Source: Komagataeibacter melomenusus (lineage in GTDB: Bacteria > Pseudomonadota > Alphaproteobacteria > Acetobacterales > Acetobacteraceae). Taken from it: a stretch of DNA of 43,702 nt. Below are positions 469-34,608 of the stretch, piece by piece. The stretch is from the NCBI RefSeq assembly GCF_013155395.1, contig NZ_JABJWC010000031.1, forward strand, positions 1-43,702, written 5' to 3'. Position 1 is the first letter of the stretch. The number at the start of each line of letters is the position of its first letter. The notes below the pieces were generated by a model that was not told the DNA's origin, searched no databases, and saw only the letters and a list, made by a program, of their open reading frames with translations. The position numbers and the translations under genes are program-made.

Positions 469-1917
469 CAGCCTGTCGGGTTGGGCATTTTGCGGCTGAT
501 AACGCCGAGGCAGACCCGGCTTATGCTGCGTGAAGCCGAGCCATTCTTTTGCAGTTGTATGCGAGAGCGCCGAGTGTCCATTCGGTCGTAACTTTTGCAA
601 GGCTGCGCAGACTGAATCTTCTGAACCCCATGATGCTTTTGATAATTCCAAAGACCGGTTCAACGGTCTGTTTTTGTAGTCTGTAAACATCTCCGGCTTC
701 TGTGGTTTCCAGCCTGTCCTTCATGGCTAGCCGCCAGGGTTCGGTTATCCGGCGTGGCTCCTTGTTTTCAGGAGGTGGCCGGAAATCATATGGCCTGCGG
801 GCGCGAGGCCGTCCGATGGCGACCAGCGGATCGATGCCTTTTTTCCGCAGGTTCCGGACTGCCTGCCCGTTGGCGTAACCGGTGTCGGCGAGCACTGTCT
901 TTGGGAGACCGATCGTGTTTTCCATCGACAGCACCGTGCTGGTAAAGGACGGCGCGTCCGCTGACGTGGCGACAACGCCGGTTGTCACGATCAGCTGGCT
1001 GCCTTCAGCGCAGACCACAGCCTGAGCATTGTAAGCCTGCCGGAACTCATGGGCGTCCGAACGCCGCATGAGGCGGCTGTCCGGATCAGTCAGGCTGATC
1101 TGCCGGTCGGGTGGTGGTTCATCATCGGGCGGTTTCGGCGCCCGGCCACGATGCCCTGTTTTCGCATCATAAGCGGCTTTCTTCTTCTCGTAGGCCGGTC
1201 GCGCCGCCTCGGCCTGAGCCTTCGCGTCAGCTTCCAGCCGGGCGCAGGCTTCATCCAGCTTCGCTTTCAGCGTTTCCCGGCGGGCACGTTCTTCCGGCAA
1301 TGCCTGCGGATCGCTGTCTGTGGCATCCGCGTGCTCCGCCTGGTCCATCAGTTTCGCGATATCCACCCCCAACTGTTCACGCAGGGCCCTGATCCGGTCG
1401 TAGCGCAGGGAGCGGTATTTCGAGGCGTCGGCATCAATCTTCGTGCCGTCGATCGACACCATACCCAGACGCAGCAGGCCCGTCTCGCGCGCCAGAAGCA
1501 GGACCTGCGCAAATGCAGCTTCAATGGCCGTCCGGTTCGTTCGGCGAAAGGCGGCAATCGTGTCGTGATCCGGATGCAGGTTCGCCGCCACGAAGCGCAC
1601 CCCGGTGTCACGATATGTCGCCCGCTCGATCCGGCGTGAGGAAAATAGCCCGTTCGCATAGCTGAAGATCAGAAGGGCCAGCATCAGGCGCGGATGGTAC
1701 TGTGCCTTGCCACCTGTACGTACTGGCACGGAAAACGCATTCATCGGAACCCGCTCAACGGCAGCCACAATGAAATGCGCCATATCATCAGCCGGAAGCC
1801 ACGACTTCAAATCAGGAGGCAGAAGATACGGCTGAGACCGGTCAAACGGGATGAAGCTGCTCATCTCACCACCTTACAACCGCCCCCCTTCACAGGGTAC
1901 CCCAACCCGACAGGCTG
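469..1917 (-). mobile_element. IS1182-family insertion sequence with CTAG target duplication
   Basis: A perfect inverted repeat pairs 465-485 with 1901-1921; the left arm includes AGCAGCCTGTCGGGTTGGG. The outermost four bases are CTAG at both ends (465-468 and 1918-1921) and are best read as a 4-bp target duplication, which gives element borders of 469 and 1917. The single transposase gene fills the element. Intact ends plus an uninterrupted transposase frame suggest a recent, possibly active copy. Confidence 0.85.
521..1864 (-). CDS. IS1182-family transposase
   Basis: This is a full-length 447-aa transposase. The N-terminal domain carries the family signature (FIPFDRSQPYLLPPDL start, then a PRLMLALLIFSYANG helix). 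Next comes the first catalytic Asp in MVSIDGTKIDADAS. An insertion rich in Glu, Ala and Lys, probably coiled coil, covers about residues 180-245. The second Asp is in VLADTGYANG and the Glu is in QTVEPVFGIIKSIMGFRRF. No frameshift or stop interrupts it. It reads toward the IS5 remnant and away from the NACHT gene. Confidence 0.93.
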   Translation of the reverse strand: MSSFIPFDRSQPYLLPPDLKSWLPADDMAHFIVAAVERVPMNAFSVPVRTGGKAQYHPRLMLALLIFSYANGLFSSRRIERATYRDTGVRFVAANLHPDHDTIAAFRRTNRTAIEAAFAQVLLLARETGLLRLGMVSIDGTKIDADASKYRSLRYDRIRALREQLGVDIAKLMDQAEHADATDSDPQALPEERARRETLKAKLDEACARLEADAKAQAEAARPAYEKKKAAYDAKTGHRGRAPKPPDDEPPPDRQISLTDPDSRLMRRSDAHEFRQAYNAQAVVCAEGSQLIVTTGVVATSADAPSFTSTVLSMENTIGLPKTVLADTGYANGQAVRNLRKKGIDPLVAIGRPRARRPYDFRPPPENKEPRRITEPWRLAMKDRLETTEAGDVYRLQKQTVEPVFGIIKSIMGFRRFSLRSLAKVTTEWTLGALAYNCKRMARLHAA

Positions 1918-1940
1918 CTAGCGTGTTACCAGTGTATTTT

Positions 1941-1991
1941 TTGACATTGATATTATCTCATGATAAAAAAACGATACATATTAAGGATTTA
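1941..1991 (+). promoter_or_regulatory. Promoter and RBS of the NACHT gene
   Basis: A consensus -35 TTGACA lies at 1941-1946. A 17-bp spacer leads to TAAAAA (1964-1969); GATAAA at 1962-1967 is an alternative -10 with 15-bp spacing. AAGGA at 1983-1987 is a Shine-Dalgarno sequence 8 nt before the ATG at 1996. The -35 box begins only about 20 bp inside the IS1182 right border, so the promoter belongs to the AT-rich segment and not to the IS. Confidence 0.55.
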
Positions 1992-1995
1992 AATT

Positions 1996-4794
1996 ATGCG
2001 ACCAACAGAATATGCCATTGCCGACAGAATATATAAGAAAATAAATAATCTAGAAAATGAGGAAGATATTGCTAATGATGCTAGAATTGCAACCGAAGGA
2101 TGTTGTAAACTATTAATTTTTTTATTTGATAGAGAGAATTATGATGCAAAAACTTCTGGGAAGACGTTGAGATCGTTGTGTGATAGTTTAAAACATGACG
2201 TTTTGGGAATTAATGCGACTCATCTAAAAAAAATAAAATCATGTATAGAAAAAATAATGACTTTGGGGAATATAGGATCCCATGATGGATCTGTTATTCT
2301 TGAAAAAATTGATATTGGAGATATTATTTTTAATATTAACAGGTTAATACATCTTATATTTAACAGTAAGGAATACATAAATATTGATTTTGAGCTGCCG
2401 AATGGAATGTATAAATTAATTCATAAGCAGGACATTAACAATCAAAACTGGCGATGTGATCAGATAATAAAAATTGTCTATCCGGGCCGAAAGGTAAAAA
2501 TAGAATCGTCATCTCAGAATTACCAATTTTATAATATATCTGATGCGGATGGTAGAAGTATAGGCATACTGTTCTTACATAGAAATATAAGTATGAAAAA
2601 TACTATTGACGAAGTTATAGATAAATCAGATATAAATTCATTTGATAGTATACAGATACTGACTCCTTTAGAAAGAAATAAAGAAACGGGGAAGCCTATT
2701 TCTACAAGAGTAAGCTATATTACGGACTGCTTCAAGCAAAACAATAAGGTAAGACTAGAGCATGAGAAAATAAAAGGCAGTTTCATAGAGGATTATATAT
2801 TTAACCTGAGCCTTGAAAGCCACAAAGAAAATATAATAAAAAACCAGAGAGAACCTTTTTTTGTTGAGCAGAAATTAGTAAAGTATTCTGACCGTCAACG
2901 AGAAATAGGGAGTATGGATTTTATAAATTCTATCATAAACAAAAAACCGGAGTATGACTCCCCAATTTATTTTATATTTGGCGAAGGGGGCATAGGAAAG
3001 ACGACATTTTGTAAAGAGGCTGTAAGAAGAATAAATTCCATTGGAGAAAATGAGAAAAAAATTGGTGTCATCATATCATCTTTTGATATTCCCAATGATG
3101 CATCTGTAGTTCACCAAGTCAATACAATACAAGATTTATATAAATTAGCTAATATTAATAACAACGACTCAATATCTCAAGAAATATTTTCAATTAACGT
3201 CAGAAGTGGAAATATAATTGTTATCGTGGATGGGATGGATGAAATAATATCTAAGCTTAAAGATAAATTTTCTATAAAGAATTTTATAGAATCCGTTTAT
3301 GAACTTAATGATACATATCTTAACTGTTCAGTTATAATCTGTTCGAGAAATTTAAAGTTAGATGAGCGGGAAGGCTACATACATAAATTAAGCTTGAAAG
3401 GTTTTGATAATCCCCAAATTGAAGATTATTTAAGCAAAAGGTTTGATAATGACAAGATAAAACAGAGAGCTCGGAATATAATCGGAGAAATTTACGACAA
3501 AGAATATGATTCTCGGAGAGGCCAGATAACACCTCTTGTCATAAAATTAGCATCTGATTTATCGGCTGAAGATGGATCTATCTCTTTTTCAGATGCATCA
3601 AGCGATTTTCTTATAAAAAAACATGCTATTGATAAAATTATTTATTTGATCGTAAATAGAGAGATAAAAAAGCACGACTTGAACATAGATTTTGATAAGT
3701 ATTTTATCGTGCTAAAAGAAATAGTATTCTCTTCAAGTGCCTCTTCCGTTGATGAAGAAGAGCTAAATTTCATTATCGATATAGCTACCGTAGATATGGA
3801 AGACAATAAGAAAAGGTTTTTTATAAAAGCGATATATTCATCACCGTTATTGCATAAGATCGACAATTTTTTCATTATCAGATATGACTCGTTAGATTTT
3901 TGGGTTAAATCCCGGTACATGGTCAAGCGTATTAAAGAGAATAATCCAGAAACAGATGGATCTGTTTTAAATGCAATGGCTAGAGATTGTTATGCTGGAG
4001 GAGCGCTTGTAAAAGATATTAGTATCAATAGAGAATTATACGGAGACTACGAGAAGAATACTATACATTATATAAAGGCTATTTCCGAAAAAGATGACAT
4101 TGTTAAAAATAGACGTAAAATACTATCTGCGTACTCATATATTTATTGCTCCAGAGAAAATTTGTTAGACAAAGAAAAAACTACTGATTTTATAATATTT
4201 CTTTATGGGGGGAAACTCATTATTGAAAATATGGCCATATACGGGGACTTTTTCCCGTTAGATTTCACAAATATTAAAGTTGTGAATGGGTATTTTAATT
4301 CCTATTCTTCTTTACATAAATGTAATTTCCCCGATCATGTCGTATTTGAAAAAAGTGTTTTTGAAAATTTTCAAGATTTTTCTTATGGCCGGGAAAGTAT
4401 AAAAAGAATAATCTTCGATGATAATTGTATATTATGTGAATCGATAGGAGAGGCTATCGCGACTGCGAACAACAATGCCAATGCTAATAGAGAAAAAATA
4501 AAAAAGGATTTTGATAAGATTTTTAGAGTCGGTTTTAAGGATGGATCGTTTGTGTGGAAATCTGAGCAAGTTTATAGACAGCAATGTTCCACTCTGAAAA
4601 CAAATAAATCAATAAATGATATCATGAATGTTCTTTGTAATTTTGGGATATTTTCGAAAGTCTCTAAGAGAGAGAGACGTGGTTATGGGTGGGTTGTGAG
4701 TGACGATTTTCAAAAAATTGTGGAAGACTATCTAACTCAAGGCATATTACATAATAAAATAGATGAATGTATAAATTCCATAGCTAAACCGTAA
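1996..4794 (+). CDS. NACHT-domain STAND NTPase, candidate anti-phage protein
   Basis: This 932-aa protein has a central NACHT NTPase module. The Walker A motif is GEGGIGKTT (G329-T337, Lys335). The Walker B motif is IIVIVDGMDE (Asp412, Asp415, Glu416). A sensor-1-like VIICSR (Arg451) and an LKGFDNPQIEDYLSKRF segment typical of the NACHT helical/winged-helix region follow. Residues 1-125 form a helical bundle ending in LGNIGSHDG, like DUF4145/HEPN-type domains. The C-terminal part has Phe-rich alternating segments and a possible winged helix at about 830-925. Bacterial NACHT proteins are known single-gene phage-defence factors; that this one is such a factor is inference. The gene is far more AT-rich than all metabolic genes here, is flanked by IS elements on both sides, and so was probably acquired horizontally. 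No effector nuclease or partner gene is visible. Confidence 0.85.
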   Translation: MRPTEYAIADRIYKKINNLENEEDIANDARIATEGCCKLLIFLFDRENYDAKTSGKTLRSLCDSLKHDVLGINATHLKKIKSCIEKIMTLGNIGSHDGSVILEKIDIGDIIFNINRLIHLIFNSKEYINIDFELPNGMYKLIHKQDINNQNWRCDQIIKIVYPGRKVKIESSSQNYQFYNISDADGRSIGILFLHRNISMKNTIDEVIDKSDINSFDSIQILTPLERNKETGKPISTRVSYITDCFKQNNKVRLEHEKIKGSFIEDYIFNLSLESHKENIIKNQREPFFVEQKLVKYSDRQREIGSMDFINSIINKKPEYDSPIYFIFGEGGIGKTTFCKEAVRRINSIGENEKKIGVIISSFDIPNDASVVHQVNTIQDLYKLANINNNDSISQEIFSINVRSGNIIVIVDGMDEIISKLKDKFSIKNFIESVYELNDTYLNCSVIICSRNLKLDEREGYIHKLSLKGFDNPQIEDYLSKRFDNDKIKQRARNIIGEIYDKEYDSRRGQITPLVIKLASDLSAEDGSISFSDASSDFLIKKHAIDKIIYLIVNREIKKHDLNIDFDKYFIVLKEIVFSSSASSVDEEELNFIIDIATVDMEDNKKRFFIKAIYSSPLLHKIDNFFIIRYDSLDFWVKSRYMVKRIKENNPETDGSVLNAMARDCYAGGALVKDISINRELYGDYEKNTIHYIKAISEKDDIVKNRRKILSAYSYIYCSRENLLDKEKTTDFIIFLYGGKLIIENMAIYGDFFPLDFTNIKVVNGYFNSYSSLHKCNFPDHVVFEKSVFENFQDFSYGRESIKRIIFDDNCILCESIGEAIATANNNANANREKIKKDFDKIFRVGFKDGSFVWKSEQVYRQQCSTLKTNKSINDIMNVLCNFGIFSKVSKRERRGYGWVVSDDFQKIVEDYLTQGILHNKIDECINSIAKP

Positions 4795-4804
4795 GTGGAT
4801 ATAA

Positions 4805-5163
4805 GAGCCTGTTTGAAAAATCAGTCTGATGTGATTCAAGCTCAGGATGTGGACGTCAGAGCAGAGGGGCCGGATGGCCAGGATCACCCGCAAGACGAAA
4901 CGCTATCCGTCTGACATAACAGACGAGGAATGGGAGCGGATCGAGCCTTTAATGCCACGTCCCGGACGTCGTGGAAGGCCGCGCGAAATTGAGTTCCGCG
5001 AGGTTATCAACGTGGTGCGCTGTCTGGTACGTTCGGGCGTGGCTGGCGGATGCTGCCAATCCACTTCGGTCACTGGCGGACTGTTTACGGCTGGTTCCGT
5101 GAACTGGCCCGTCGCTTCCTGTTCCAGACCATCCATGACGTGGAACGTATCCACTCGGTGAAG
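4805..5163 (+). pseudogene. Truncated, frameshifted IS5-family transposase
   Basis: The left IS end begins near 4805 with GAGCCTGTTTGAAAAATC. A transposase frame starts at ATG 4874 (MARITRKTKRYPSDITDEEW), the typical N-terminal DUF4096-like domain of IS5-family enzymes. A one-base deletion between 5038 and 5039 shifts the frame: adding one T there restores SGCGWRMLPIHFGHW, which continues in another frame as YGWFRELARRFLFQTIHDV. Homology stops near 5140-5163, before the catalytic domain. It is a dead remnant immediately downstream of the NACHT gene. Confidence 0.85.
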
Positions 5164-5254: not shown

Positions 5255-6917
5255 GGGGTCTTCCGCAAAGTGTGTGGTGATTTTTGCGCTATGAGATTGG
5301 AAGTACACGTGCCCTGAGGAGTTCGAAGCCCGCTCTCCCGAACATGGTGCGCTTTATCATTTTCAATCGACTGATCTGCCCCTCGACAGGGCTGGTTGTC
5401 CACGATGTCACAAGAGAAGCCCGAATGGCTGCGGCATCCCGTTCAAGGGCTGGAACCAGACGGGAGAGCAGCGTATCCCTTCCTTCTTTCAGTAAAAGCC
5501 TGAGGTTGTCTTCTGATTTCCTGCAGAGCAGATTTTGCATTTTCCTCACCCAGCTGGTTGTTTTTTCCAGTTGGGGTTCTGCTGCAAGAAGTTCCCCGAC
5601 AAACAGGTTCTGCTGATCGGCAAGTGTTCCAGGATCCATCAATAGGAGGCGTGCCAGTTTCCGTCCGAGGGGAGGCACAGCATGGCGTCGGAAGCGCTGT
5701 TGTGGAGACGCAGCCTGTCGTATCGTCAACCATTTCCACACAATCCCATATTTCCCGGTAAAACCCTGACTGACCAGCTCCCGCCACAATGTCGTGGCGT
5801 TATGGCATCCTTCATGCCATCGCCTGTCCAGATAATCCGTATAAGGCGCGAGGATACCGGGCTTTGTCGTGGCACGCTTCCATGTCGGGGCGTGCCCCTG
5901 CCTGAACCAGCGCCGCAGGGTCTTGCGCTCGACACCAATCCTGTCAGCTATGACCTGAAGGCCATGCCCTTCGGCTTTCAGGGCAAGGGCATCATTGAAT
6001 CGGGTTTCACGCCTTGACTGTGCGGCCTGGCTCGCATTCCGTGTGGGCGCCTGTGCTTTTTGCAGGCATGATGGCTGGGCACGCATCCCGGTATCCGTGG
6101 AGGCTGACTGACAGAGTTTCTGCGTGGCAGATGCCATCTGTCTGTGACCTGAACGGCCGATGGTGCACCTCTGTAACAGGCATCCGCGTAGGCTCCAGCC
6201 CGGTCTCTGGCAATGATCTCAATACCGAGATTTTGCACAAGCCATGCAGCAAGGGTATCCGCCTGCCGGTCTGGCAGCAGGTTGACCACATCATTTTTTT
6301 CCAGACCGACCAGGATGGTGCCGTAATGATGCCCCCGACGCCAGGCCCAGTCATCCACACCCAGAACACGGGGAGACCGCGCAGGGGGCTTCCCTGACAT
6401 TCTGGAAAGGAGCCTGCGGATCAGGGTGTCTGCGCTGACCGGGCAACGCAGGCGTTCTGCCATTCTTGCGCCTGCAGACCCACCCACTGCATGGGCCACA
6501 TAATGGTGAAGGTCTGTCAGGCGCATGGTATGACGCCCATAGGGCACGGTCATATGGATGACAAACGTCCGGCGACGACAACCGGCAGTGTTGCAGTAAA
6601 GACGGAACGAGGAAACCCGGAATGTAACACGACGGCCCTGCCAGGGCAGATCCGACAATGTACGGCGATCAAGACTATGGATCCGCTGCATCCGGACATG
6701 ACAGTCGGGACAGACAGCACTGCGATCACACAAACTCGCTTCAATATGCACCGTATTGTCGCTCGGCGTGACCTGATCAACAACGAGAGAGGGCGGAAGA
6801 TCAAGGCACCGGAAGGATGACACGACAGAAAAACCCCAAAAGTTGCATACCTTCAGGATTTCTCAGCTTCTTTTGCGCAGTACAAGTCCTCGCACCACAC
6901 ACTTTGCGGAAGAACCC
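5255..6917 (-). mobile_element. ISL3-family element (inverted repeats visible)
   Basis: Terminal inverted repeats of 25 bp with one mismatch pair 5255-5279 with 6893-6917; the shared core is TCTTCCGCAAAGTGTGTGG. A frameshifted ISL3 transposase lies between them. The expected 8-bp target duplication is not found (TGAGAACT on the left, ATATGTGG on the right). Either flanking sequence was lost or the element recombined after insertion. Confidence 0.75.
5289..6823 (-). pseudogene. ISL3-family transposase, frameshifted
   Basis: Two overlapping frames make up one ISL3 transposase. The N-terminal frame (from 6823) has a zinc-finger-like CPDC...C...C region. It then has the DDE_Tnp_ISL3 signature [22 protein letters not shown] with the first Asp, and [12 protein letters not shown] with the second. 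Homology changes frame right after VTDRWHL, near 6110-6137. The second frame (to 5289) carries a helix-turn-helix segment (VIADRIGVERKTLRRWF) and the C-terminal SPVEGQISRLKMIKRTMFGRAG with the catalytic Glu. A single frameshift probably inactivates it. Confidence 0.85.
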
Positions 6918-7193: not shown

Positions 7194-8267
7194 TCAGGAA
7201 GCGGTAGCCGCTGCCATTGCGGCGGCCTCCACCGGTTTGCGATATGTCTCGCCGCTGGTCATCAGCTTCCATGCAATGCGTGCCATCCTGTTGGCCAGGG
7301 CTACAGCAGCGAGTTTCGGCTTCTTTCTGCTCAGAAGACTGACGAGCCATGGCGTGGCGAGACGGCTCTGTTCGTTCTGCCTTACATGCCGAAGCACGGT
7401 GGTCGCTCCGACAACCAGCGTACTTCTCAGGCGGCTGTCTCCAGCCCTGGTGATCCCGCCATGCCTGACCTTGCCGCCTGATGAATGATCACGAGGGGTG
7501 AGGCCTATCCACGCCGCGAAATTCCGGCCTGAGCAGAATAGATACGGATCCGGGGCCTTCATGAGCAGCAGAGCCGCTCCCAGAGGACCGATGCCCGGAA
7601 TTCCGGATAGCCTGCGGCTCACCTCCTGACTTCGATGCCATGTGGCCAGTTTTTCATCGAGCTCCCTGATGTGCTTCATCAGGGCTTCATACTCTTCCGC
7701 CATCTGCGCAAACAGATCACGTGCGAGAGGTGGCAGCGTTTCTTCAGACGCAATCTGCTGAAGGAATGGTTCCACACGGGAGAGACCCGCAGGGGCGGTC
7801 AATCCGAATTCTGCGGCGTATCCCCGAATGGAATTGGCCAGCTGGGTACGTCTGCCAATGAGCCGCTCCCGCATGCCGACAAGCATGAGGGCCGCCTGCT
7901 GCTTAACTGTCTTGACGGGCACAAAACGCATGGTCGGACGGCTCATCGCCTCACAGAGGGCCTCGGCATCTGCCGCATCATTCTTGCTGCGCCTGACGTA
8001 CGGTTTGACAAGCTGTGGCGCCATCAGCCTCACTTCGTGGCCAAGCGCACCAAGGGTTCTGGCCCAGTGATGGGAAGCCCCACAAGCTTCAATGCCAATC
8101 ACTGTCGGCGGAAGTTTCTCGAAAAACCGGATCATCTGATGTCGGCTCAGTTTCCGGCTTGGCGCAACCCGCTCTTCGGCATCCACGCCGTGGAGCTGAA
8201 ACACTTTTTTCGAGGTATCCATGCCGATACGGACCAACTGACGCATGATGGTTTCCTTCACTGACAT
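7194..8267 (-). CDS. IS110-family transposase (DEDD recombinase)
   Basis: This 357-aa protein has the RuvC-like DEDD N-terminal domain: Asp17 in VRIGMDTSKKVF, Glu in VIGIEACGASH, and the Asp pair in KNDAADAEAL. The C-terminal Transposase_20 domain contains SGIPGIGPLGAALLL and the conserved Ser motif PRDHSSGGKVRHGGITRAGD. The ATG at 8267 follows a GAGGAG ribosome binding site. The upstream gap to the inverted repeat is about 70 bp and the downstream non-coding region is long, which fits the IS1111 subgroup better than the IS110 subgroup. The frame is intact. Confidence 0.92.
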   Translation of the reverse strand: MSVKETIMRQLVRIGMDTSKKVFQLHGVDAEERVAPSRKLSRHQMIRFFEKLPPTVIGIEACGASHHWARTLGALGHEVRLMAPQLVKPYVRRSKNDAADAEALCEAMSRPTMRFVPVKTVKQQAALMLVGMRERLIGRRTQLANSIRGYAAEFGLTAPAGLSRVEPFLQQIASEETLPPLARDLFAQMAEEYEALMKHIRELDEKLATWHRSQEVSRRLSGIPGIGPLGAALLLMKAPDPYLFCSGRNFAAWIGLTPRDHSSGGKVRHGGITRAGDSRLRSTLVVGATTVLRHVRQNEQSRLATPWLVSLLSRKKPKLAAVALANRMARIAWKLMTSGETYRKPVEAAAMAAATAS

Positions 8268-8537: not shown

Positions 8538-8795
8538 ATGCACACCACTAATCTCCGTAAAGTCGGTGGCTCCGTCATGCTGGCTGTTCCGCCAGCGATT
8601 CTGGATGTGCTGCATCTCACAGCAGGTGCAAAAGTCGGTATCTCGGTTGATAACGGTCGGCTTGTGATCGAGCCTGCGGCTCCACCACGCTATACGCTCG
8701 AAGAGCTTCTTGCCCAATGTGATGAAACTGCTGAAATCAGTGCTGAGGATCGGGCGTGGATTGATGCCGAACCGGTCGGGAACGAGATCATCTGA
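8538..8795 (+). CDS. mazE: MazE/PemI-like antitoxin
   Basis: An 85-aa protein starting MHTTNLRKVGGSVMLAVPP. This is the swapped-hairpin AbrB/MazE DNA-binding fold, with the typical K-x-G-x-S-x-x-L-x-x-P pattern and a VGISVDNGRLVIEP strand at about residues 35-50. The acidic C-terminal tail (YTLEELLAQCDETAEISAEDRAW) is the part that in this family wraps around and blocks the toxin. The stop TGA shares one base with the toxin ATG (8795), so the two are translationally coupled. It lies between IS elements, as mobile toxin-antitoxin pairs often do. Confidence 0.9.
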   Translation: MHTTNLRKVGGSVMLAVPPAILDVLHLTAGAKVGISVDNGRLVIEPAAPPRYTLEELLAQCDETAEISAEDRAWIDAEPVGNEII

Positions 8796-9127
8796 TGGAG
8801 CGGGGGGATATCTACCTCGTCTCACTCGATCCCACGTCAGGTCATGAGCAGCAGGGAACACGGCCGGTAATGGTTGTGTCTCCCGCCGCGTTCAATCGGC
8901 TGACGAAAACCCCGATTGTGTTGCCGATTACTAGCGGAGGCAATTTTGCACGTACCGCTGGGTTTGCCGTGTCGCTTGTGGGGGCAGGGACCAAAATAAC
9001 GGGAGTGGTTCGCTGTGATCAGCCTCGTGCTCTTGATATTGGGTCGCGGAGTGGTCGGAAACTGGAGAGTGTTCCGACACACATCATTGATGAAGTGCTG
9101 GCTAAGCTATCCGCGATTTTGGAATAA
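8795..9127 (+). CDS. mazF: MazF/PemK-family mRNA endoribonuclease toxin
   Basis: A 110-aa protein of normal family length. MERGDIYLVSLDPTSGHEQQGTRPVMVVSP is the N-terminal MazF signature, with the conserved GxE/H...GxRP catalytic loop. LPITSGGNFARTAGFAV and GVVRCDQPRALD form the second conserved block, including the conserved Asp-Gln dyad region. It would cut mRNA at short sequence motifs; the target motif cannot be read from sequence. It probably stabilises the island or acts in phage defence beside the NACHT gene. All expected motifs are present, so it appears functional. Confidence 0.92.
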   Translation: MERGDIYLVSLDPTSGHEQQGTRPVMVVSPAAFNRLTKTPIVLPITSGGNFARTAGFAVSLVGAGTKITGVVRCDQPRALDIGSRSGRKLESVPTHIIDEVLAKLSAILE

Positions 9128-32668: not shown

Positions 32669-33270
32669 CTCACGCCTCCAATCATGCTGGGGTGACACAA
32701 ACGCCTGATGGTTCGCAGCACCTGATCGTGTGTGGGGTGGGGGATAAGGACTCGTTTTGCGTTCCTGTCGGGAAACTGCGCTGATCATTACGGATGTGGT
32801 TTGTTTTCACAGCTGCTATTTTGTTATTCACCGTTGCCTCTGTGGCAACAATTTTTTCATTACCAAAAATGAATGAAGACAATAATATCGTTCTATATCA
32901 ATTAATTGAATGTCTTTTTTTTATTTTTTTTACAGGATTTCCGGAGGATTTTTCATATCGAAATCGGTCTGAATCGGGGGTGACGTGCTTTCGCATCATC
33001 GGTGACGCGATAAAAATGTCACGCTCCGTTCAGTCGGATCGCGGTCCGGCACGGGGGCGGCCGCATTCGTTTCATGCATGACATTAAATTCGGCACCGAA
33101 ACACTTTTCTGCGTTGACATGGCCGTGCCTTTGAATCGTAAAGTCGGTTGGCAGGCGCATCAGATTTTGCACTGTGGGGAAGGTTGTGAGGCTGTTCCCC
33201 ACACAATCTGCAAGTAGATGTGCGCAGAATATTTTCATTATCGACAGTCAAAGCAGAGCGGGGTTTATTG
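32669..33270. promoter_or_regulatory. Divergent control region, receptor / MFS permease
   Basis: About 600 bp without a credible gene. It contains GTTGCC-TCTGT-GGCAAC (32833-32849), which is followed by AATTTTTT, and TTCATT-N6-AATGAA (32856-32873). It also has a long dyad TGTGGGGAA-N13-TTCCCCACA (33173-33203) about 70 bp before the permease start. The 10-mer ATTTTTTCAT (32851-32860) recurs in the rpiR/dpaL gap at 35569-35578. These are likely operator or leader hairpins; exact promoters were not assigned. Confidence 0.45.
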
Positions 33271-34608
33271 ATGGCTGATCCATCACGATCTTCCATGAAC
33301 GCAACGGAGCAGGACATGCTCGGGCGCATCTATCGCAAGATGGATGTGCGTATCGTAACGATCCTGCTGGTTGCCTATCTTCTCGATTGTGTGGATCGGC
33401 TGAATATCGGGTTTGCGCAGAAGAACATTTCCGAACATCTGGGCATGAACAGCAGCGATTACGGCATGGCTGCGGGTATTTTCTTCATTGGTTATGTCCT
33501 GTTCGAAATTCCATCGAATCTGATGCTGCCGCGTGTGGGCGCGCGGCGTACGTTCGCGCGCATCATGGTCCTGTGGGGGGCGACGTCGGCCTGTATGGGG
33601 TTGTTACATGACAAGAACATGTTCTACGTCTTGCGCTTCATGCTCGGCATGTTCGAAGCCGGTTTCGCGCCTGCATGCATGTTCTACCTGGGCCTGTGGT
33701 ATCCGCCTTCACGGCTGGCTACCGTCCTTTCGGTGCAGCAGACCGCATCGCCCCTGGCCGGTGTCATGGCCGGGCCGCTTTCGGGGTGGCTGATCTCGTC
33801 GATGGATCATGTCGGCGGGGTGGATGGCTGGCGGTGGATGTTCATGCTGGAAGGGCTGCCGAGCATCATCATGGGAGTTGTGGTCTTCTTCATCCTGCCC
33901 GACCGCCCCGAAGATGCGCGCTGGCTGGATGACCGCGAACGCATGCTGCTGAAACGCGATAGCGCGCCGGCCCCTTCGGCGGTCTATTTTTCCAGTTTTC
34001 GGGCCGTGCTGCGCTCGCCCGTGATCTATGTGCTTTCCCTGGCTTATTTCTGCCTGATCTGCGGTATCTACACGGTCAATTTCTGGCTGCCCAACATCAT
34101 ACGCAATGCTGGCGTCCAGTCGGAACTACAGACCGGCCTGTTCTCGGCCATTCCCTACGCCGTGTGCACGATCGCGATCATCATATGGGCGCGCCGCTCC
34201 GACCGCACGGGTGAGCGCAGGCTGCACAGCACGCTGCCGGCAGCCTTCGGTGCGCTGGCCCTGTTCGTTACGGCGTTTGTGGGGGGCAGCCTGTTCCTGT
34301 CGCTTGTGGTCGTCTCCATTGCAATCTCGCTGATCTTTTCCGCCTACATCATCTTCTGGGCCGTGCCGTGCGAGATGCTCAAGGGCCCGGGTGCGGTTGG
34401 CGGCTTTGCGCTGGTCAATTCCATCGGGCTCATGGGCGGGTTCTGCAGTCCCATCATCATCGGTCACCTCACGAACTGGACCGGCACCCTTGCCGCGGGC
34501 CTTGTCTGCATGGGCCTGATCGTGGCCACCGGCAGCATTCTCCTGTTCGTGTCCGTGCCACGCGGGCCTGCCAGGCAGCACAAGCCGGTCACGGCCGTAG
34601 CCGCCTAG
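33271..34608 (+). CDS. MFS transporter, anion:cation symporter (ACS) type, copy 1
   Basis: About 445 aa from ATG 33271 (MADPSRSSMN); the frame is open from 33220. Twelve TM segments are visible. The N-terminal ACS signature is VRIVTILLVAYLLDCVDRLNIGFAQ with the essential D-R-x-N. GIFFIGYVLFEIPSNLMLPRVGARRTFARIM carries the loop motif, followed by RFMLGMFEAGFAPACMFYLGLWYP. Substrates in this family are organic anions such as tartrate, phthalate, galactonate or pantothenate. Convergent with rpiR and divergent from the TonB-dependent receptor, it may supply the inner-membrane step for the same compound. Confidence 0.92.
   Translation: MADPSRSSMNATEQDMLGRIYRKMDVRIVTILLVAYLLDCVDRLNIGFAQKNISEHLGMNSSDYGMAAGIFFIGYVLFEIPSNLMLPRVGARRTFARIMVLWGATSACMGLLHDKNMFYVLRFMLGMFEAGFAPACMFYLGLWYPPSRLATVLSVQQTASPLAGVMAGPLSGWLISSMDHVGGVDGWRWMFMLEGLPSIIMGVVVFFILPDRPEDARWLDDRERMLLKRDSAPAPSAVYFSSFRAVLRSPVIYVLSLAYFCLICGIYTVNFWLPNIIRNAGVQSELQTGLFSAIPYAVCTIAIIIWARRSDRTGERRLHSTLPAAFGALALFVTAFVGGSLFLSLVVVSIAISLIFSAYIIFWAVPCEMLKGPGAVGGFALVNSIGLMGGFCSPIIIGHLTNWTGTLAAGLVCMGLIVATGSILLFVSVPRGPARQHKPVTAVAA

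Follow-up and report, generated by a model that had tools for sequence, protein, structure and literature searches.

What does a gene do that differs in base composition from the genes around it, carries the motifs of a nucleotide-dependent switch and lies within a cluster of insertion sequence (IS) elements? Such a gene occupies positions 1996–4794, on the forward strand, of a 43,702-nucleotide stretch of DNA (hereafter the window) from the acetic acid bacterium Komagataeibacter melomenusus (contig NZ_JABJWC010000031.1). Its open reading frame (ORF) starts with ATG, runs for 932 codons without an internal stop and encodes a NACHT-type STAND NTPase of 932 amino acids (P0001), which an original prediction had put forward as a candidate phage-defence protein. 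That proposal gains support from homologues, from the swapping of effector domains among them, from the phage and plasmid contexts in which they lie and from the predicted fold. Judging from sequence comparisons, we consider it probable that the gene encodes a single-protein, NLR-related, abortive-infection-type anti-phage STAND receptor that belongs to a rare clade and was acquired horizontally. A STAND immune receptor fits the locus because a constant switch and C-terminal domain are combined with swapped N-termini on mobile DNA.

The nucleotide-binding core

By its motifs and its modelled structure, the window protein is a NACHT STAND NTPase with the NBD-HD1-WHD-HD2 fold. The NACHT nucleotide-binding domain (residues 323–485, positions 2962–3450; this and all other features of the gene lie on the forward strand) carries a Walker A motif, GEGGIGKT (residues 329–336, positions 2980–3003), that includes Lys335, and a Walker B motif, IVIVDGMDEI (residues 408–417, positions 3217–3246), that includes Asp412, Asp415 and Glu416. 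Arg451 (positions 3346–3348) lies in the segment VIICSRN beginning at residue 446, and we take its role to be sensor-1-like, as in NACHT proteins generally. Each of these residues sits at the position originally claimed for it, and K335, D412, D415, E416 and R451 are invariant across the five proteins of alignment A6. A helical region resembling HD1, WHD and HD2 follows (residues 486–704, positions 3451–4107), as indicated by the secondary structure of the model and by Foldseek alignments.

The NACHT identity rests on a borderline Pfam match, on the structural model and on homologues, and together these bear out the original assignment. With hmmscan, the window protein scores 23.9 bits against Pfam NACHT (E 4.3e-5), which is under the curated cut-off of 26.7, whereas a six-frame search of the genome gives the same ORF 27.7 bits, over that cut-off; the related model NPHP3_N is matched over its cut-off (E 1.1e-5). 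All six relatives described below exceed the NACHT cut-off, one of them (L007) by 0.1 bit. Simple counts of the NACHT family are too unspecific to be of use, as 133 of 200 genomes match it (33 over the cut-off) and so do 11 of 14 control genomes.

An AlphaFold model of the window protein has a mean predicted local distance difference test (pLDDT) score of 67.5, with most of the NACHT domain and the region after it at 70–90, and with residues 650–693 and most of residues 1–152 below 50. A Foldseek search with this model ranks animal NLR structures at the top, namely NOD2 (5irn, E 5.8e-11) followed by NLRC4 and NLRP3, and also recovers the bacterial anti-phage protein Avs4 bound to a phage portal (8dgf, E 2.3e-8). 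The alignments to NLRs span about 500–700 columns, covering NACHT and the helical domains that follow. TM-scores by query length are low (0.16–0.28 among the 50 rows listed), so that the fold class is supported and a close relation is not, although low scores would not be surprising for flexible multidomain proteins. With the window protein as query, a sequence search of the PDB yields no match; a profile of its core retrieves general P-loop proteins and, among them, NOD2 entries (E 0.0092).

A family with exchanged N-terminal domains

Searches for homologues recovered six relatives, of which two are plasmid-borne, three lie on phage-like contigs and one is in a metagenome-assembled genome. 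A tblastn search of plasmids gave one full-length match, on the Aliarcobacter plasmid pM830MA (locus L002, protein P0002; 24.6% identity over 98%, E 7e-39; blastp against the window protein, E 4e-50 as a single comparison), and also yielded a Pantoea protein (L003). A second Pantoea record with the same protein (99.7%) was merged with the first, and a Calothrix plasmid match (E 3e-3) was left out. Genome contigs contributed one relative from 140 candidate stretches, the metagenomic locus L007. Viral contigs, which were searched deliberately, contributed L008, L010 and L011; successive searches gave 0 relatives from 21 candidates, 1 from 124, 4 from 194, 0 from 600, 3 from 124 and 0 from 33, with L009, L016, L017 and L018 being the same contigs as these three.

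The family appears to be rare. The window itself was the sole match in 200 genomes of its taxonomic family (E up to 1e-3) and in 376 genomes of its class (E up to 1e-20). In a phylum sample, 4 of 398 genomes matched the protein query and 3 of 398 the profile, and the matches other than the window cover the NTPase only (L004–L006, L014) or the C-terminal part only (L015). The profile search scored just two first-look candidates in most of the genomes shown, so members may have been missed. We rejected L004, L005 and L006/L014 as family members because their matches are confined to the NTPase, and by eye they are NACHT proteins with pentapeptide and WD40 repeats; L012 was rejected as another NACHT by eye, and L015 was counted apart. 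A phage gene proper was also rejected, as 50,697 phage records hold no match to the window protein and PHROGs returns a weak P-loop match (E 0.00043).

The N-terminal domains of these proteins differ in type. Pfam identifies PNP_UDP_1 in four of the six relatives (Pantoea, E 1.3e-13; L007, 6e-14; L008, 5.5e-19; L010, 9.8e-12), TIR_2 in one (L011, E 3.6e-17) and, in the one from Aliarcobacter, DUF4145, the type to which the window protein is also assigned. TIR and phosphorylase domains have been reviewed as anti-phage effectors that deplete NAD and ATP, NLR-like systems included (PMC10952713). The phosphorylase-type relatives further give weak N-terminal matches to the PADLOC effector model PDLC00759 (E 2.2e-9 to 7.3e-13) and to PDC-M60C, and P0002 gives a weak match to mad8 (E 2.2e-5). 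Membership of a PADLOC system was rejected, the window protein having no match and the relatives weak ones.

In the window protein, the putative N-terminal effector region spans residues 4–134 (positions 2005–2397) and is probably DUF4145-like, an assignment made mainly via the one plasmid homologue. The N-terminus of P0002 matches Pfam DUF4145 over the cut-off (E 2.6e-5) and aligns with the N-terminus of the window protein (blastp E 2e-6, single comparison), the two sharing E23, A29, R30, E34, C37, K38, G91, N92, G94, S95 and H96. The last five fall in the segment GNIGSH (residues 91–96). Five helices are predicted in the region with low confidence. A PDB search with a profile of the two N-terminal sequences recovered designed TIM barrels (best E 1.4e-4) along with unrelated proteins. 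The same genome encodes a second protein of this kind, a type I restriction-like helicase subunit that begins with DUF4145 (L033, 1441–3273) and by eye has QGNRAAH at the corresponding place.

Between this region and NACHT lies a middle alpha/beta domain (residues 150–300, positions 2443–2895), which hhalign aligns with the TIR-type L011 (E 1.7e-6) and with L010 (E 3.7e-4).

The C-terminal domain is the second constant part. It spans residues 705–932 (positions 4108–4791), has no Pfam name and is a candidate sensor. When the two DUF4145-type proteins were compared with the others by hhalign, it was recovered in three phosphorylase-type proteins (probability 96.9, E 1.4e-10), in the TIR-type L011 (93.5, E 2.3e-7) and in L010 (98.8, E 9.1e-17), with E-values that hold for single comparisons. 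The C-terminal domain looks portable, because it also stands behind a different NACHT-type NTPase core in L015 (1–2184; probability 95.8, E 7.4e-9 against the phosphorylase type). A separate model of the domain has a mean pLDDT of 82 and contains helices, short paired strands, a long helix and a winged-helix-like end. The strand pattern in the models suggests a short beta-solenoid-like stretch (residues 742–790, positions 4219–4365), likened by eye to pentapeptide repeats, and the L015 counterpart has a sub-threshold match to Pentapeptide_3 (E 0.04). Pfam, NCBIfam and PADLOC give the C-terminal part of the window protein no match above cut-off or at a convincing E-value; its fragment has one sub-threshold Pfam match, to LFE_1968-like (E 0.081), and residues 764–855 of P0002 match a type I specificity-subunit model in PADLOC (E 5.6e-4). 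The model likewise finds nothing among viral models at E 0.001 or better.

The winged-helix-like end (residues 857–930, positions 4564–4785) raises the alternative that the protein is a STAND transcription regulator in the style of MalT or the SWACOS proteins, binding DNA through this end. Its fold resembles the winged helices of MarR and TubR, and at the matching place L008 has a sub-threshold match to TFIIE_beta (E 0.0039). However, the MarR/TubR matches are weak (best E 0.032), it is not obvious what TIR and phosphorylase enzymes at the N-terminus would do in such a regulator, and by eye we noticed no neighbour gene shared among the six relatives in the stretches around them. We therefore regard a regulator as highly improbable. 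Lacking a common neighbour in those stretches, a metabolic or housekeeping role is not favoured either, and conserved metabolic operons, which the original prediction had named as evidence against defence, were not seen around the six relatives (L011, at a contig edge, is visible on one side).

Mobile surroundings of the window gene and its relatives

The window gene stands out from its neighbours as originally described, with a GC content of 0.308 and a GC content at third codon positions (GC3) of 0.27, compared with 0.54–0.64 and 0.64–0.79 in the 11 further ORFs of the window that were measured. The surroundings have roughly 60% GC, and the shift in composition coincides with insertion sequences. 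The IS cluster itself is real. On the left, an IS1182-family element on the reverse strand (469–1917, transposase 521–1864) has inverted repeats and, by eye, CTAG on both sides (465–468 and 1918–1921). Komagataeibacter plasmids account for 12 of the 15 plasmid records that match this element, and IS1182 is annotated in all 10 matches listed of those 15. On the right, a forward-strand IS element starts at 4804 (4804–5161, transposase fragment 4847–5161), another genomic piece matching from the same position. Beyond it lie reverse-strand transposase ORFs at 5289–6823, a broken pair of two overlapping frames, and at 7194–8267; these are presumably of ISL3 and IS110 type. At the other end, the contig starts inside an IS copy (1–468) for which the genome holds six more matches, two at 98%. 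A DNA-level search of plasmids with the island gave no match.

These features could also mean that the gene is a recently trapped foreign gene that sits silently between IS elements and has no function in its host. ATA codons, which are rare in the host, occur at 75 per 1,000 in the gene against 0–14 in the 11 other ORFs, the AT content is extreme, IS elements lie on both sides, and the promoter that the original prediction had given the gene found no support. A consensus scan located no promoter site in 1922–1996, and the 15 sites found in 1850–4900 do not exceed the mean of 16.3 in shuffled sequences; by eye, a perfect TTGACA (1941–1946) has no good −10 partner. Inspection by eye suggests AAGGA at 1983–1987 as a plausible ribosome-binding site. 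Against silent cargo, all 932 codons form an unbroken reading frame with intact NACHT motifs, and AGA/AGG use (33.3 per 1,000) does not exceed that of one transposase ORF nearby (33.5). We consider this alternative very unlikely.

Foreign origin is supported by the homologues and by the phage and plasmid contexts of the relatives. In all six relatives the gene is richer in AT than the surrounding DNA whatever the GC content of the host, like the window gene: its GC content and that of the rest of the locus are 0.207 and 0.253 for L002, 0.327 and 0.484 for L003, 0.415 and 0.594 for L007, 0.434 and 0.562 for L008, 0.378 and 0.576 for L010, and 0.319 and 0.472 for L011. The pattern is consistent with an AT-rich gene that has spread horizontally on repeated occasions.

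Several relatives lie beside genes of defence or phage type. The Aliarcobacter gene sits between an SbcCD-like gene resembling LmuB of Lamassu (E 1.2e-17) and a gene resembling MkoC of Mokosh (E 6.1e-61). At the latter (10292–14211 of L002), two adjoining ORFs match successive parts of MkoC, as if the gene were split, with a dGTPase gene beside them. L010 adjoins genes for a DNA methyltransferase and a Vsr nuclease, with repressor- and excisionase-like genes near, L008 neighbours phage repressor, CII-like and primase genes, and L011 neighbours helicase-loader, replication-initiation, repressor and exonuclease genes; these phage-gene calls come from 10 ORFs picked across the three loci. On a mobilizable plasmid, the Pantoea gene is flanked by tyrosine recombinases. 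By eye, L007 is preceded on its own strand by an RlpA-like ORF and followed on the opposite strand by one resembling aconitase, and no defence-like neighbour was noticed there.

Such contexts would also suit a STAND protein that acts in conflicts with plasmids or other mobile DNA, or a gene serving an element's own stability or superinfection exclusion, rather than a host anti-phage gene. Relatives are found on plasmids and next to genes for phage lysogeny and replication, and the window copy is enclosed by IS elements. Yet the swapped TIR and phosphorylase effectors belong to anti-phage systems, as do the neighbouring genes resembling Lamassu, Mokosh and restriction–modification components. 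The boundary with defence is thin, since defence carried by a prophage is also exclusion. On balance, we judge this explanation unlikely.

Elsewhere in the window, beyond the right-hand end of the IS cluster, two adjacent ORFs of 85 and 110 amino acids (8538–9127) resemble by eye a MazEF-type toxin–antitoxin pair. ARAGORN calls a tRNA-Arg (TCG) at 33748–33824, within an ORF (33220–34608) that by eye resembles a major facilitator superfamily transporter, and this call is probably false.

Proposed mechanism and relation to known systems

Several observations count against an anti-phage receptor or the parts assigned to it. The window gene is not in a defence island, its nearby genes being by eye IS elements and metabolic genes, and PADLOC returns no family for its protein at E up to 10. 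Two of the 10 neighbour proteins of relatives tested with PADLOC are also without a match. Because viral contigs were searched deliberately, their share among the relatives is biased and is no measure of enrichment. The C-terminal model matches no solved structure in the PDB at E 0.001 or better, and most of the N-terminal 150 residues are modelled below pLDDT 50. The middle domain does not align significantly with the other three phosphorylase-type relatives (hhalign 0.2). Pfam DUF4145 is weak on the N-terminal fragment (E 0.0061, 17.0 bits against a cut-off of 23.1) and goes undetected in a scan of the whole protein, and a search of its own genome with that model (E up to 0.1) does not list the window ORF.

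The catalytic motif of the N-terminal domain adds to this. RNase activity is the family expectation for a HEPN-type N-terminal domain. DUF4145 has been assigned to the HEPN superfamily, and its Rx4-6H motif is described as mostly conserved (80%) (PMC3710099). The window protein lacks the canonical arginine, with T, L and G at residues 89–91 before His96, and in P0002 an arginine and a histidine are separated by seven residues at this place. With the histidine present and the arginine absent, RNase activity of the domain is doubtful.

The preferred reading of an anti-phage receptor yields a mechanism by analogy with bacterial NACHT proteins, which have a tripartite layout of effector, NACHT and sensor (PMC12169576). 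By its sequence, the window protein has this architecture, its two ends taking putative effector and sensor roles. The C-terminal domain, with its helices, short beta-solenoid and winged-helix-like end, would keep the protein inactive until it recognizes a phage product or a host component altered by infection. The NACHT module would then swap ADP for ATP and oligomerize, and oligomerization would gather the N-terminal DUF4145/HEPN-like domains, which may stop growth or kill the infected cell. We infer oligomerization, sensing, the nature of the trigger, the N-terminal chemistry and the protection against phage from this comparison.

Known systems of this kind share parts of the design. In the bNACHT proteins (bNACHT25 and bNACHT32 with NCH1; bNACHT02 and bNACHT12 with SNaCT), a single gene likewise encodes an N-terminal effector, a central NACHT and a C-terminal sensor (PMC12169576). 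The effector of bNACHT25 and bNACHT32 is a PD-(D/E)XK nuclease rather than a DUF4145-like domain, and the C-terminal domain of the window protein has no library match. Avs4 is also a STAND NTPase and matches the model in fold, but its chains have 1,534–1,541 residues compared with 932 here, where the C-terminal domain comprises about 230 and PADLOC gives no match. The animal receptors NOD2, NLRC4 and NLRP3 align over NACHT and the helical domains that follow, whereas the window protein is bacterial, has an effector unlike CARD or PYD, and was found to have no leucine-rich repeats. A DUF4145-like N-terminal domain is shared with HEPN/DUF4145 proteins that include BxaP, a DUF4145 protein that protects against T4 (PMC10799925); the window protein differs in its fusion to a NACHT switch and in lacking the canonical arginine. 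Bacterial HEPN–STAND fusions have been described in general (PMC3710099).

The kind of protein is thus already known, and it is plausible, judging from libraries and literature searches, that the new element is the combination. Our literature searches, which did not extend to the published list of bNACHT clades, did not find a DUF4145-like effector joined to NACHT and the family C-terminal domain. The original suggestion of a new subtype stays plausible rather than proven, as no Pfam, NCBIfam or PADLOC family convincingly matches the C-terminal part. Likewise, of the two ends originally left unmatched, the C-terminal one is still without a library match, while the N-terminal one can be called DUF4145-like through its homologue. 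A further proposal, tentative and on the doubtful side, is that these proteins form an unnamed bacterial NLR-related clade in which a C-terminal sensor of its own, with a beta-solenoid and a winged-helix-like end, is combined with at least three exchangeable effectors. A DUF4145/HEPN-like domain that lacks the RNase arginine, and hence acts through another chemistry or through binding, would be among them, and the sensor, as its presence in L015 may suggest, would be a portable phage-recognition module.

None of the titles among the matches listed in a search of the literature on Komagataeibacter phage defence concerns NACHT defence. If the anti-phage reading is true, the window gene would serve acetic acid bacteria in phage defence, and it would represent a rare clade of bacterial immune receptors, NLR-like in build, that couple one sensor and switch to different effectors. 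It would then become possible to ask what DUF4145 does upon triggering, and effectors could be swapped while the trigger is held constant.

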